A stretch of DNA of 64,000 nt, from the NCBI GenBank assembly GCA_009392295.1, contig VFGW01000006.1, forward strand, positions 1-64,000. The letters run 5' to 3'. The position numbers and the translations under genes are program-made. This document shows positions 1,245 to 43,688 of the stretch, piece by piece. The DNA is from SAR202 cluster bacterium. Lineage in GTDB: Bacteria > Chloroflexota > Dehalococcoidia > Lucifugimonadales > GCA-2719675. Every line of letters begins with the position of its first letter. The stretch's first letter is position 1. The notes beneath the pieces are model-generated. The model was not told the DNA's origin. It saw only the letters and a program-made list of their open reading frames with translations, and did not search any database.

Positions 1245-1391
1245 TTCAGTCCTCATATTAATATTTTGAATAATTATCTGGATTATATATTTAATAAGAG
1301 ATAAATCAATTAATTTTCATCTAATTTGTTTGAAGATTGAATTTATCAAAGATAATATATACGAATTATAAAAATTTACTCGGAGGCAATA

Positions 1392-2534
1392 ATGGCTAAT
1401 AAAAAATTCAATATAGGTTTCATATCTTCTCACGGACATGATCTTGCTGGGCATATCATCGACCAAGCTGCTAACCCTGATTTAGAATCTATTCATTTAT
1501 GCTTAATGAACGATAAAGATGTAGCTCAAAGAGATTTAGATATAAATAAAATAGCTGAAGCTTCTGAAAAAGTAAAAACCAAAACAAAAAACATAGATGA
1601 CATCCTAAATACTAAAGACCTTGATGCTGTAGCAGTTTGCGCCAGACCTGATTTAGCACCAGATATATTCAATAAAATTCTAGATGCTAATTTACCAATT
1701 ATTACTGATAAACCAGCATCAAATGATTCAAAAAGATTAGATGATGTAGCTAAAAAAGCTGCTAAAAAAAATCTAGCGTTTGGAACTATGCTTCAATGGA
1801 GAAGAAACCCTGCTATCCTTGATATCAAGAGAGCTGTAGATAGTGGTGCACTTGGACAAATCATGACTGTAGAAGTACGTTTATTAACTAGTACTATTAA
1901 TTGGCGAGGGCCAGGTAAATCATATCTGCTTGAAAAATCAAGCATGGGTGGTGGAATTAGTTCTTGGTTAGCTTGCCATATGTTAGACATGCTTATCTTC
2001 ATTTTAGATGAAAGAATAACTGAAGTTTCAGCTTTTACAGGAAATAGACATCCTGTAAAAATTGACGTCGAAGATACAGCAATTTCAGCAATCAAAACCG
2101 AATCAGGAATCCTTGGTTCTGTGCACACAGGATATTCTTTATGCGGTCCCGGCAAATTTGGAAATGATATATATTTGGGTATCAGAGGTACTGAAGGATA
2201 TGTTAGTATACCGTTCTATATGCCAGGACAAGAAGATTTAGATAATACACTTTATTTATACAGTGAAAATGAAAATTGGGTCACAGGCGGACAAAGAGCA
2301 ATGACTTATAGCCCATACTATAAAACTCAATTTGGCAAATCAGGTGTAGACTTGGGTAGTGGAGGATATGGTGGATTTATGGCAGAAAAGCTTTTTGTTG
2401 ATTTCTTGAATTCAACAAGAAACCAAGGAAAAAACCCAACTCCTATTGAAGATTTAGTTCATGTGTTAGAAATAGGTGAAGCAATACGTGAATCTTCAGA
2501 CTCTGGAAAAGCAATTTCAATTAGTAAAACTTAA
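1392..2534 (+). CDS. Gfo/Idh/MocA family oxidoreductase, tandem copy A
   Basis: Probable NAD(P)-dependent dehydrogenase acting on a sugar or polyol. It has a Rossmann N-terminus, a DKP motif at residues 106-108 in place of the usual EKP, and a GGGISSWLACHMLDM segment near 187-201 whose His and Asp match the active-site helix of the family. The first strand (IGFISSHGH) lacks the classical GxGxxG loop, so cofactor binding may be unusual. Length (380 aa) is normal. The start has a strong GGAGG seven bases upstream. A second copy about 88% identical lies 56 bp downstream, so this is a recent tandem duplication. Substrate cannot be read from sequence. Confidence 0.85.
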   Translation: MANKKFNIGFISSHGHDLAGHIIDQAANPDLESIHLCLMNDKDVAQRDLDINKIAEASEKVKTKTKNIDDILNTKDLDAVAVCARPDLAPDIFNKILDANLPIITDKPASNDSKRLDDVAKKAAKKNLAFGTMLQWRRNPAILDIKRAVDSGALGQIMTVEVRLLTSTINWRGPGKSYLLEKSSMGGGISSWLACHMLDMLIFILDERITEVSAFTGNRHPVKIDVEDTAISAIKTESGILGSVHTGYSLCGPGKFGNDIYLGIRGTEGYVSIPFYMPGQEDLDNTLYLYSENENWVTGGQRAMTYSPYYKTQFGKSGVDLGSGGYGGFMAEKLFVDFLNSTRNQGKNPTPIEDLVHVLEIGEAIRESSDSGKAISISKT

Positions 2535-13196: not shown

Positions 13197-14249
13197 ATGA
13201 AAGATAATAATAAATTCAATTTGACTTCACTTACAAATTGTGGTGGTTGAGCCTCTAAATTTAGTCAATTAGACTTAGCTCAAGTTTTGAGCCAAATTAC
13301 AGAATTTTCAAATCAAGATCCAAATATCATTGTAGGCATCTCTGATGGAGATGATGCTGGTGTTTATAAAATTAATAATGAACTATCACTAATCATGACA
13401 GTTGATTTTTTTCCTCCTATAGTTGACGACCCATTCACTTTTGGAGAAATTGCTGCTTGCAATGCAGTTAGTGATATTTATGCAATGGGAGGTATTCCTA
13501 TAATTGGAGTAAATATCGTTAATTTCCCTAAAGATGTTGATAAAAAATTCTTAGTTGAAATTATTAAAGGAGCTACAAGTAAAGCTAAAGAAGCAGGCTT
13601 TTCAATTATTGGAGGTCATAGTATCGTTGACCAAGAGCCTAAATTTGGAATGGCAATCACTGGATTGATTAAAACTGGTGAACAAATCACTATAAATAAT
13701 GGAAAACCTGGAGATTATTTAATCCTTACAAAACCAATTGGTTCAGGAATAATAACTACCGCTTCAAAGGAAAAGAATATTTCAGAATCAATATTAAAAA
13801 ATACCATTAAATACATGACTCAATTAAACCACGATGCTTCTCATATAATGACATCTTTAAAAGCAAATGCTTGTGTGGATATTTCTGGATTTGGCTTAAC
13901 TGGTCATATATTAGAAATACTTAATGCTAGCAATTTATCTGCTATTATTGATTCATCAAAAATACCTACAATAAAAGGAGTATTTGATTTAGCAAAAAAA
14001 GACCTTGTACCACAAGGTTCAAAACAAAATCTTGAATATTCCTCTCAACATATTAAATGGGGAAAAAATATTCAACACCATGAGAAATTGGTTTATTCAG
14101 ATGCACAAACATCTGGAGGCTTACTAATTTCAATTCCCAAAGAAAAAGCAAATATGCTAATTAATCAACTTCATTCAGCAGGAATAAAAGATTCAGCTGT
14201 AATTGGTGAATTAACCAAAAACAAAAATAGTAAGTTGATAATAAATTAG
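13197..14249 (+). CDS. selD: Selenide, water dikinase, selenocysteine-containing
   Basis: Makes selenophosphate from selenide and ATP, the selenium donor for selenocysteine and selenouridine. The ORF track gives only the part from a TTG at 13287. The frame actually opens at ATG 13197, behind a strong GGAGG, and reads through TGA at 13248-13250 to give NCGG-Sec-ASK, where SelD has its catalytic Cys/Sec followed three residues later by the essential Lys. The full length is 350 residues including Sec18, normal for the family. Later motifs include the Asp-rich DGDDAGV, TVDFFPPIVDDP, CNAVSDIYAMGG, GGHSI and a DAQTSGGLL C-terminal motif. A SECIS-like hairpin follows the UGA. argS starts 18 bases downstream. 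The host must also carry SelA, SelB and tRNA-Sec, none of which is in this window. Confidence 0.92.
13278..13292 (+). promoter_or_regulatory. Bacterial SECIS-like hairpin in selD
   Basis: A perfect six-base-pair stem (GCTCAA against TTGAGC) closes a three-base GTT loop, inside the coding sequence. The loop begins with G and lies 33 bases after the UGA, within the 16-37-base range used in bacterial SECIS models. A flanking AATT/AATT pair could extend the stem through an internal loop. The position and shape fit SelB recruitment; base-pairing was checked by eye only. Confidence 0.7.
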
Positions 14250-36158: not shown

Positions 36159-36310
36159 TTACTATCCTTCCTAAACAAAATTGATTCAACTGATTAAATA
36201 AGATTAAAATTATGATACATTCAAGAATTTTTATATTCAACTACTTGATGAATTTATATAAGTTGTGTATTAAATCAAAAAAAATCACAAAAATTCTTTA
36301 AGGAATAATC

Positions 36311-37531
36311 ATCAACACAAAAAATCATTCTCCAAAACCTTTATCGTATATAGGTATAAGACTATTAACATTGTGCCAATTACTAGGTGGAACCAGTATT
36401 TTTATTCAAAATGTTGTAGTTGGATGGTTTACTTACGATCTAACCGGTTCAAGAATTTTAACTAGTATGTCCTGGGGAATAGACTCTTTATCAAATGTAA
36501 TTTCTGGACCTATAGGAGGATTGGCTGCCGATAAATGGGAAAGAAAAAAAATTCTGGCATACACACAATTTTTAAAAACAGCCATTGTTGTAATATTTTC
36601 ATTTCTAATTATTTATAATCAAGTCAATGCAATATGGATTTTGTTTTTCGTATTACTTTTAGGGTTTTGGAGCACAGTTTCAGCACCTTCTGAACACTCT
36701 ATAGTCCCAACTGTTCTGCCAGTGAATTCAAATATTTTAGTTAGTTCCTTCGCTACAATTATGGCTGCACAACATCTGTGTGGAACTATCATGCCTCCTA
36801 TAGCCGGAAAAATGATTTCCTGGTTTGGCCCCGGAGAAACATTAGTGTCAACATCTCTCCTGTTATTTTTGGGTGGATTGACATATCTTAAAATCAATCC
36901 TATTAATTCTCATAAAGAAAACAAACAAATAAAAAAAATTAACTATAAAGAATTGTTAATTTTTCTAAAAAAATCTCCACTAATACAAGCAATGGTAATA
37001 GCTAGAACTTGGATATATTTGTTTGTAACCCCTGCAGTACACGGTTTACTTCCTGTATTTGCAGCAGAGGAACTAAATACAAATTCTTTTGGATTAGGGT
37101 TACTTTTTGCATCTCTTGGAACAGGTGGAGTTATTGGAAATTTAGGGTTGTCATTATGGAATAAACGTTTCCAAAGAAATATATTATTTATTTCTTATTG
37201 GTCAATCGCTTGTATAGCAATGTTTATTTTCGCAAATTCTAAATCGTTATTAGTATCTTTACCTACAGCTTTTTTAGTTAATTTTGGAATCATAAGTACT
37301 CTAACAATAATTAGATCTAGTTTAGCTTCGGAAGTTCCTGACATATTGAGAGGAAGAGTTTCATCACTAAATTCAATTGCTATGATAGTAGTCCCTATTG
37401 GCAGCTTAATTGCAGGAAGTATAGCAGAAAAATACAATGCCCCAACAGCAACTATGTTATGTTGTTTATTTTTCTTCTCTTCATTAGTAATTACCTTTTT
37501 GATCTATCCTCAGATACGAAATGTCAAATGA
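36311..37531 (+). CDS. MFS transporter, apparent ATC start
   Basis: A 12-TM major facilitator, of the family with GWFTYDLT in TM1-2 and GPIGGLAADKWERKK in the first cytoplasmic loop. The track starts at TTG 36371, which has no ribosome site and deletes about 20 residues including the first part of TM1. The frame is open back to a TAA at 36299 and contains no ATG, GTG or TTG; an AAGGA at 36300-36304 lies six bases before ATC 36311. From there the protein is 406 residues, close to the 407 and 403 of its paralogues at 37528 and 61906. The stop overlaps the ATG of the next gene (ATGA). Substrate unknown. Confidence 0.75.
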   Translation: MNTKNHSPKPLSYIGIRLLTLCQLLGGTSIFIQNVVVGWFTYDLTGSRILTSMSWGIDSLSNVISGPIGGLAADKWERKKILAYTQFLKTAIVVIFSFLIIYNQVNAIWILFFVLLLGFWSTVSAPSEHSIVPTVLPVNSNILVSSFATIMAAQHLCGTIMPPIAGKMISWFGPGETLVSTSLLLFLGGLTYLKINPINSHKENKQIKKINYKELLIFLKKSPLIQAMVIARTWIYLFVTPAVHGLLPVFAAEELNTNSFGLGLLFASLGTGGVIGNLGLSLWNKRFQRNILFISYWSIACIAMFIFANSKSLLVSLPTAFLVNFGIISTLTIIRSSLASEVPDILRGRVSSLNSIAMIVVPIGSLIAGSIAEKYNAPTATMLCCLFFFSSLVITFLIYPQIRNVK

Positions 37532-42825: not shown

Positions 42826-42834
42826 TGCTATAAT
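42826..42834 (+). promoter_or_regulatory. Extended -10 promoter for the SDR-ThuA-Gfo-lactonase operon
   Basis: TGCTATAAT, the same 9 bases as in the selD promoter, preceded by TAA as there. Transcription would begin near 42841, about 30 bases before the start codon. A TTGTTA at 42802-42807 is a weak -35 candidate with 21-base spacing. Confidence 0.5.
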
Positions 42835-42872
42835 TTGATCAAAATTTAAGTAGTCTAATTAAGGAAGATGAA

Positions 42873-43688
42873 ATTATCAAAGATCTTAACGGAAAAGTAG
42901 CAATGATCACAGGGGCTGGCCGATTACGTGGAATTGGCAGGTCTACTGCTTTAGCTTTAGCAAAATCAGGTGCATCTGTTGCAGTATTAGATCTCTACAA
43001 AAATTTACCCTTCAAAGCAAATGATGAAATCAAAATTGGATGGACTGGAATTACCAGTTTAGAAAAAGAAATCACTCAATTAGGTAAATCAGCTATCGCA
43101 ATTAAATGTGATGTCACGAATAAAAAATCAGTTGCTCAGGCTGTTAGCCAAATAATCCGAAAATATGGAAAAATAGATATTCTAGTAAATAATGCTGCAT
43201 ATCCTAATGGGGCTGATAGAGTTAAAATGTCTGAATTAGAATTAGAAATTTTCCAAAAAGTAATGGCTGTAAAAGTCACTGGCAGTTTTTTGTGTACTCA
43301 AGCTGTTGCAGAATCTATGATTAAAAATAAAAATGGTGGGAAAATAATTACAATTGCTTCTGGTTCAGGTAAAAAAGGATTTGCAAAAAATCATCCATAC
43401 ACTGCAGCTTGCTTCGCACAAGTTGGAATGACACAATCCTTGGCAAAAGAGTTGGGCCCTCATGGTATTAACGTCAATTGTATTTGTCCAGGACCATTGC
43501 ATACAGCTAGAGTAGATCATAGTCTTAGTGAAATAGAATGGAAACAAGTGTGGGAAAATCTACCCTTAAAAAGCCCTGGAGATGAATCTTTTATAGCATC
43601 TTTTATTTCCTTTCTGTGTTCTGAATCAGCTTCTTGGATAACTGGTCAGGCAATAAATATAGATGGTGGGTCAATTTCAGAACACTAA
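42873..43688 (+). CDS. SDR dehydrogenase, apparent ATT/ATC start
   Basis: Short-chain dehydrogenase. The track ORF begins at ATG 42903 and cuts the first beta strand. The open frame upstream encodes IIKDLNGKVAM, and GKVAMITGAG is the standard SDR beginning. Between the in-frame stop at 42831 and the ATG there is no ATG, GTG, TTG or CTG. An AAGGA (42861-42865) is seven bases from ATT 42873 and ten from ATC 42876. Either would give about 271 aa, the usual size. Cofactor loop GAGRLRGIGRS, NNAAYPNGAD, and YTAACFAQVG as an active-site region where the Tyr is present but the Lys of YxxxK is replaced. The track ATG has only a weak GGA nine bases upstream. Confidence 0.75.
   Translation: MIKDLNGKVAMITGAGRLRGIGRSTALALAKSGASVAVLDLYKNLPFKANDEIKIGWTGITSLEKEITQLGKSAIAIKCDVTNKKSVAQAVSQIIRKYGKIDILVNNAAYPNGADRVKMSELELEIFQKVMAVKVTGSFLCTQAVAESMIKNKNGGKIITIASGSGKKGFAKNHPYTAACFAQVGMTQSLAKELGPHGINVNCICPGPLHTARVDHSLSEIEWKQVWENLPLKSPGDESFIASFISFLCSESASWITGQAINIDGGSISEH

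Follow-up and report, generated by a model that had tools for sequence, protein, structure and literature searches.

Where does translation begin in a gene whose reading frame offers no canonical start codon ahead of its conserved coding region? The question is raised by a gene for a protein of the SDR fold in the window (the whole stretch of 64,000 nucleotides that we analysed). A sequence-only reading of this DNA had claimed that the frame lacks ATG, GTG, TTG and CTG from the in-frame stop at 42831 to the ATG at 42903, and reading of the codons from 42834 bears this out (TTT GAT CAA AAT TTA AGT AGT CTA ATT AAG GAA GAT GAA ATT ATC AAA GAT CTT AAC GGA AAA GTA GCA, then ATG at 42903). The features concerned are listed here; the congener is the related genome described below.

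42829..42834, + strand: putative -10 element TATAAT with a TG extension (TGC TATAAT from 42826); TTAATGCTATAATTTGATC is identical in the congener
42831..42833, + strand: in-frame stop TAA, which closes the SDR frame upstream and overlaps the putative -10 element
42861..42865, + strand: Shine-Dalgarno (SD) sequence AAGGA (TAAGGA from 42860), kept in the congener; the anti-SD of the genome is the canonical CCTCC
42868..42900, + strand: out-of-frame ATG mini-ORF MKLSKILTEK*, 11 codons including the stop; the congener has GATTCA
42873..42875, + strand: ATT, the proposed start codon of the SDR gene, 7 nt after AAGGA and 6 codons ahead of GKVA; kept in the congener
42873..43688, + strand: SDR-fold protein of 271 codons (Pfam PF13561/PF00106, NCBIfam SDR models, PDB homologues)
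42903..42905, + strand: ATG, the first canonical in-frame start codon, read here as internal; GTG in the congener; its use would drop GKVA of strand beta-1

The start region of the SDR gene

Two genomes of the genus, which belongs to the marine Chloroflexota, were compared in all, namely the one that holds the window (G000; 1.45 Mb, 32% GC) and G001, its sole relative within the genus among the genomes searched. G001 is a Chloroflexi MAG, and its contig C2 apparently corresponds to PBID01000002.1 of Chloroflexi bacterium isolate SP301. The 204 nt spanning the SDR start region can be aligned gap-free between the two, with 80% identity (AAAGGAAGATTCAATTAACAAAGAACTTAACGGAAAAGTTGCAGTG in G001 versus TAAGGAAGATGAAATTATCAAAGATCTTAACGGAAAAGTAGCAATG in G000), and G001 has the same open frame, likewise devoid of a canonical start ahead of the GTG that matches ATG 42903. 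The SD sequence AAGGA, the 7-nt spacing, the ATT and the frame are common to both genomes, and both species encode the same L-N-G-K-V-A segment, with a single synonymous difference in the DNA. Since two independent assemblies show the same configuration, we take sequencing error and an indel to be excluded and the frame to be real. Identity between the two genomes is patchy, with a median of 81.5% and with some genes and their leaders at 98-99% (window 1356-2534 and several other places), which suggests recent exchange.

The spacing given in the sequence-only reading, with AAGGA 7 nt from ATT 42873 and 10 nt from ATC 42876, is correct, and of the two start codons that it had left open the comparison retains ATT 42873 and discards ATC 42876, which is AAC in the congener and stands 10 nt from the SD. 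The ATG at 42868, on which the sequence-only reading is silent, is likewise changed, to ATT, and the mini-ORF that it opens in G000 is probably accidental. By itself the coding signal between ATT 42873 and ATG 42903 is modest (LLR 4.5 in an extension score based on synonymous and nonsynonymous changes). The TATAAT at 42829..42834 is a probable -10 element, though a simple promoter scan did not flag it; transcription from it would begin near 42841 and leave a leader of roughly 30 nt. No Rfam elements were found in the window. Folding of the SDR leader is weak, at -3.7 kcal/mol, where the leaders of canonical starts average -7.1.

The N-terminus of the protein family agrees with ATT 42873. Among about 55 homologues, nearly all of which contain the GKVA segment, the nearest start lies 5 residues before GKVA in most (M-G/K/P-E-L-D/E-GKVA), 6 in several and 7-9 in others; ATT 42873 sits 6 before, and within the order the distance is mostly 5 or 6. 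PDB homologues align from L-N-G-K-V-A over the full SDR length, and the Pfam adh_short match already covers frame residue 21, its first position, three residues ahead of Met-42903 (residue 24). The earlier claim that a start at ATG 42903 would delete the first beta strand thus holds for part of that strand, GKVA.

Membership of the SDR fold is clear from matches to PF13561 (184 bits) and PF00106 (166 bits) and from a glycine-rich TGxxxxxG loop, here TGAGRLRGIG. The YxxxK motif of classical active SDRs is replaced by YTAAC in both G000 and the congener (window 43395-43411), and the lysine position is occupied by N or C in most homologues of the same order (loci L003-L030) and by K in distant ones. 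Within this order the subfamily has thus lost the catalytic lysine of YxxxK and may have an altered chemistry or a non-catalytic role, a separate lead with no bearing on the start codon. The gene is the first of a run that continues with a ThuA-like protein (a label read from the sequence, without an NCBIfam match), a Gfo/Idh oxidoreductase and an amidohydrolase similar to L-fucono-1,5-lactonase; a conserved TGCTATAAT element stands ahead of the run, which probably forms an operon for the catabolism of a sugar or sugar acid.

We consider it highly probable that translation of the SDR gene begins at AUU 42873. This would be a weak, SD-dependent start, kept because it holds initiation at a low level open to modulation by IF3, and about 1% of the genus genes examined appear to use starts of this kind. 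UAAGGA at a distance of 7 nt, on a short and weakly structured leader, would place the initiator tRNA over AUU, and fMet would be inserted despite the third-position mismatch to give (f)MIKDLNGKVAMITGAG... The AUU would have been retained because it sets a low, IF3-modulable rate, as in infC and pcnB. Limiting the first gene alone may adjust the dose of SDR relative to the rest of the run.

Probable near-cognate starts elsewhere in the genus

The sequence-only reading had counted two such starts in 64 kb. Its first gene was not named, and a scan of the window gave as the best match a gene for an MFS transporter.

36300..36304, + strand: SD sequence AAGGA of the MFS gene
36311..37531, + strand: MFS transporter, probable ATC start at 36311 (open frame 36302-37531); ATT in the congener

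The ATC lies 6 nt after AAGGA, and the first canonical codon, a TTG, comes 20 codons further in. The alignment to Pfam PF05977 starts at frame residue 13, ahead of that TTG (residue 24). G001 has ATT at the same column, 6 nt after an imperfect SD, AAAGAG, so that this gene too appears to have a conserved non-AUG start.

To examine how general such starts are, we used 1.43 Mb of sequence from G000 and 1.16 Mb from G001, which gave 998 pairs of orthologous ORFs, 988 of them with complete upstream ends. The first aligned canonical codons were ATG (686), TTG (206) and GTG (50), and 464 of 942 pairs had an SD in both genomes, with a spacing mode of 6. A change-point model for starts was dropped, as leaders are conserved too, and was replaced by the extension score. 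A gene was selected when its conserved coding region, judged by synonymous and nonsynonymous changes, reached 8 or more codons beyond the first canonical codon of one genome in the upstream direction; neither SD nor codon identity entered the scoring. Twenty-five genes passed. By hand, 10 of these were recognised as antisense or non-coding ORFs or conserved leaders, prfB was set aside as a case of programmed frameshifting and a RidA-like ORF as frameshifted in G001, and after curation 13 genes remained that lack a canonical start in one or both genomes (about 1.3% of the 988 pairs). Seven are common to both species and six are non-canonical in one species only. Codons are given below for G000/G001.

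infC: ATT/ATC, as AGGAG-7-ATT/ATC
recF (G000 C17:142420, G001 C3:264729, + strand): ATA/ATA, AAGGAG 6 nt upstream
hflX: ATT/ATT
rnhB: ATT/ATT, with an additional upstream TTG in G000
MFS gene at C12:71820: ATC/ATC, after TAAGG
MFS gene of the window (frame from 36302): ATC/ATT
SDR gene of the window: ATT/ATT
lipoprotein gene at C17:206298: ATC/ATG
C12:107591: ATT/ATG
pheA: CTG/TTG
uvrC: GTC or ATT/GTG
C20:97384, taken as xanthine-dehydrogenase-like: ATG/ATT
C8:69186: TTG/ATT

The names recF, hflX, pheA and uvrC were assigned from sequence motifs and partial Pfam matches, those of rnhB and C20:97384 from a reading of the sequence only. ATH codons 4-10 nt after an SD were found in 10 of the 13 genes versus 14% of ordinary genes (21-codon window; binomial p ~7e-7). 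All seven shared genes have ATH and SD at a shared column, an arrangement seen in 8% of genes in a control (in-frame ATH with an SD 4-10 nt upstream, at the same column in both genomes and within 21 codons of the canonical start). Because the list was curated by hand and the SD of the MFS gene is imperfect in G001, such p-values are nominal and indicative only. The proposal that this lineage uses AUU and AUC starts is supported by this small survey, with AUA added: about 13 of 988 ortholog pairs, 7 of them common to both genomes. Beyond AUU, AUC and AUA, the weak starts of the genus would rarely include CUG or GUC.

Some of the surveyed loci have features of their own. In prfB (G000 C17:70367, G001 C3:188719, + strand) the second frame is N-terminally open, as RF2 programmed frameshifting predicts. 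The RidA-like gene at G001 C16:94574-94912 (- strand) is frameshifted relative to G000, through assembly error or decay. An overlapping mini-ORF, MVKLKL* in G000 and MKLKL* in G001, lies upstream of uvrC (G000 C9:14885, G001 C7:16661, + strand), and its TAG overlaps the GTC (G000) or GTG (G001) column, making termination-reinitiation possible there.

Published rates are well below this one. Across 36 groups of genomes, 61,358 ancestral AUG starts included 2 that had become CUG and 1 that had become AUU; changes from GUG and UUG were similarly rare, and switches to AUU or CUG numbered 6 among about 69,000 ancestral starts (PMC5622118). Ribosome profiling of S. aureus revealed four such starts (PMC13009471), and the E. 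coli genes with such starts cited in the same paper are infC and pcnB. The rate of about 1% in this genus appears well above these figures, with the qualification that methods differ and that the published counts rest on annotation that rarely allows such starts. A check of our method on parts of phages T4 and RB69 gave 0 false positives among 94 pairs, a phage-only control too small to differ from 1.3%.

The initiation machinery and alternative explanations

A variant of IF3 or of tRNA-fMet had been put forward as the cause of these starts. The 16S 3' end carries the usual anti-SD (CCTCC). The infC gene is complete, encodes a full-length IF3 and starts with ATT/ATC as in other bacteria. Compared with the E. 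coli, Thermus and Geobacillus chains, this IF3 keeps K110, R112, R116, R131, R133 and R168 (E. coli numbering, counted by hand on the alignment), and in both species its C-domain has R in place of Y107 and S in place of R147; a literature search on these two residues found nothing.

Four other explanations were weighed against initiation at AUU 42873 or as its cause. Translation might begin at ATG 42903 (GTG in the congener), yielding a protein without the GKVA of beta-1. This codon is the first canonical one in frame, its column holds a canonical codon in both genomes, and a weak GGA lies 9 nt upstream; yet nearly all homologues have GKVA and most begin 5-6 residues earlier, L-N-G-K-V-A is preserved between the species, and the good SD precedes ATT rather than ATG. 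We regard this start as improbable. The possibility that a one-base deletion in an A run (TCAAAG), real or arising in assembly, masks a start at ATG 42868 (MKLSKDLNGKVA...) draws on the existence of that ATG and on the tidy N-terminus that one more A would create. Against it, the independent congener is gap-free there, has no such ATG and still has ATT in frame, and the SD would stand just 2 nt from the ATG, which makes this explanation very improbable. Least credible is a variant initiator tRNA that reads AUU, for which nothing speaks save the starts themselves: both genomes, as assembled, contain a single, canonical initiator tRNA (CAU anticodon, GGG/CCC anticodon stem, C1 x A72), and this part of the earlier proposal is not supported.

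The remaining explanation concerns the cause and is compatible with an AUU start. An altered IF3 might have relaxed start-codon discrimination, such that AUU, AUC and AUA starts arise and persist freely. In its stronger form, the genus would use AUU, AUC or AUA (occasionally CUG or GUC) in at least 1% of genes, these would interchange with AUG and UUG between sister species, and the altered IF3 C-domain would contribute. The 1.3% share of pairs lacking a canonical start, the six among these that are non-canonical in one species only, the few switches published, and the R and S at Y107 and R147 in both species all favour it. On the other side, the published baseline derives from annotations that rarely allow such starts and the sole control pair here is from phages; IF3 is full-length with the six residues kept; the initiator tRNA is canonical; and the retention of AUU/AUC by infC suggests intact autoregulation, and hence intact discrimination. 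Nor is a change in IF3 needed, because a few such starts are also in use in E. coli, Streptomyces and S. aureus, whose IF3 is normal (PMC13009471, PMC5472188). We therefore hold an altered IF3 to be doubtful as the cause, and a genus-wide relaxation of discrimination to be equally so.

Comparison with known non-canonical starts

Initiation of the SDR gene at AUU has several parallels. The textbook AUU-start gene is infC, which in E. coli, Streptomyces and S. aureus (AUU, AUC or AUA) resembles the SDR gene in having an SD before AUH and in being conserved between species, and which in G000 itself has the same architecture (AGGAG-7-ATT). The SDR protein, by contrast, has no part in translation initiation as a factor of its own, which leaves no place for autoregulation. 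E. coli pcnB, with an AUU start, does not encode a translation factor either; its expression is translationally limited, and for the SDR, a different protein, such limitation is our proposal. S. aureus cvfC1 (AUU), ccpN (AUA) and citZ (AUA) also combine a near-cognate start with a good SD, giving about 10-30% of AUG activity; the cvfC1 start is conserved among staphylococci, that of ccpN is common to B. subtilis and that of citZ is found within one strain lineage only (PMC13009471). The staphylococcal SDs are extended and the starts are backed by ribosome profiling; the SDR gene has TAAGGA only, and its start is predicted from sequence. Streptomyces sigR, starting with GTC, is another conserved non-canonical start outside infC, and G000 uvrC may use the same codon; repression by IF3 was shown for sigR (PMC5472188), and expression of the SDR gene may be sensitive to IF3.

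Taken singly, the SDR gene adds one more case to a rare phenomenon that is already known. A lineage with about 1% near-cognate starts, common to its species, would, if true, offer a direct test of whether start-codon stringency, and with it IF3, varies between bacterial phyla, and also a test of weak starts as fixed translational dimmers. Gene callers allow only AUG, GUG and UUG, and because of this the N-termini of near-cognate-start genes are silently truncated.

An in-frame TGA, and possibly a second one, was also encountered. In selD (window 13197-14249, + strand), ATG 13197 reads MKDNNKFNLTSLTNCGG-TGA-ASKFSQ..., and the frame with TGA as selenocysteine matches the SelD model TIGR00476 with 350 bits. 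As a tRNA-Sec gene is present (G000 C20:22087), selD is probably a selenoprotein gene; the ORF from TTG 13287 is a truncation. A redoxin-like ORF (G000 C23:8268-8840, + strand), in which the conserved frame begins with GCRAQLPVW near the upstream stop, possibly contains another in-frame TGA for selenocysteine.
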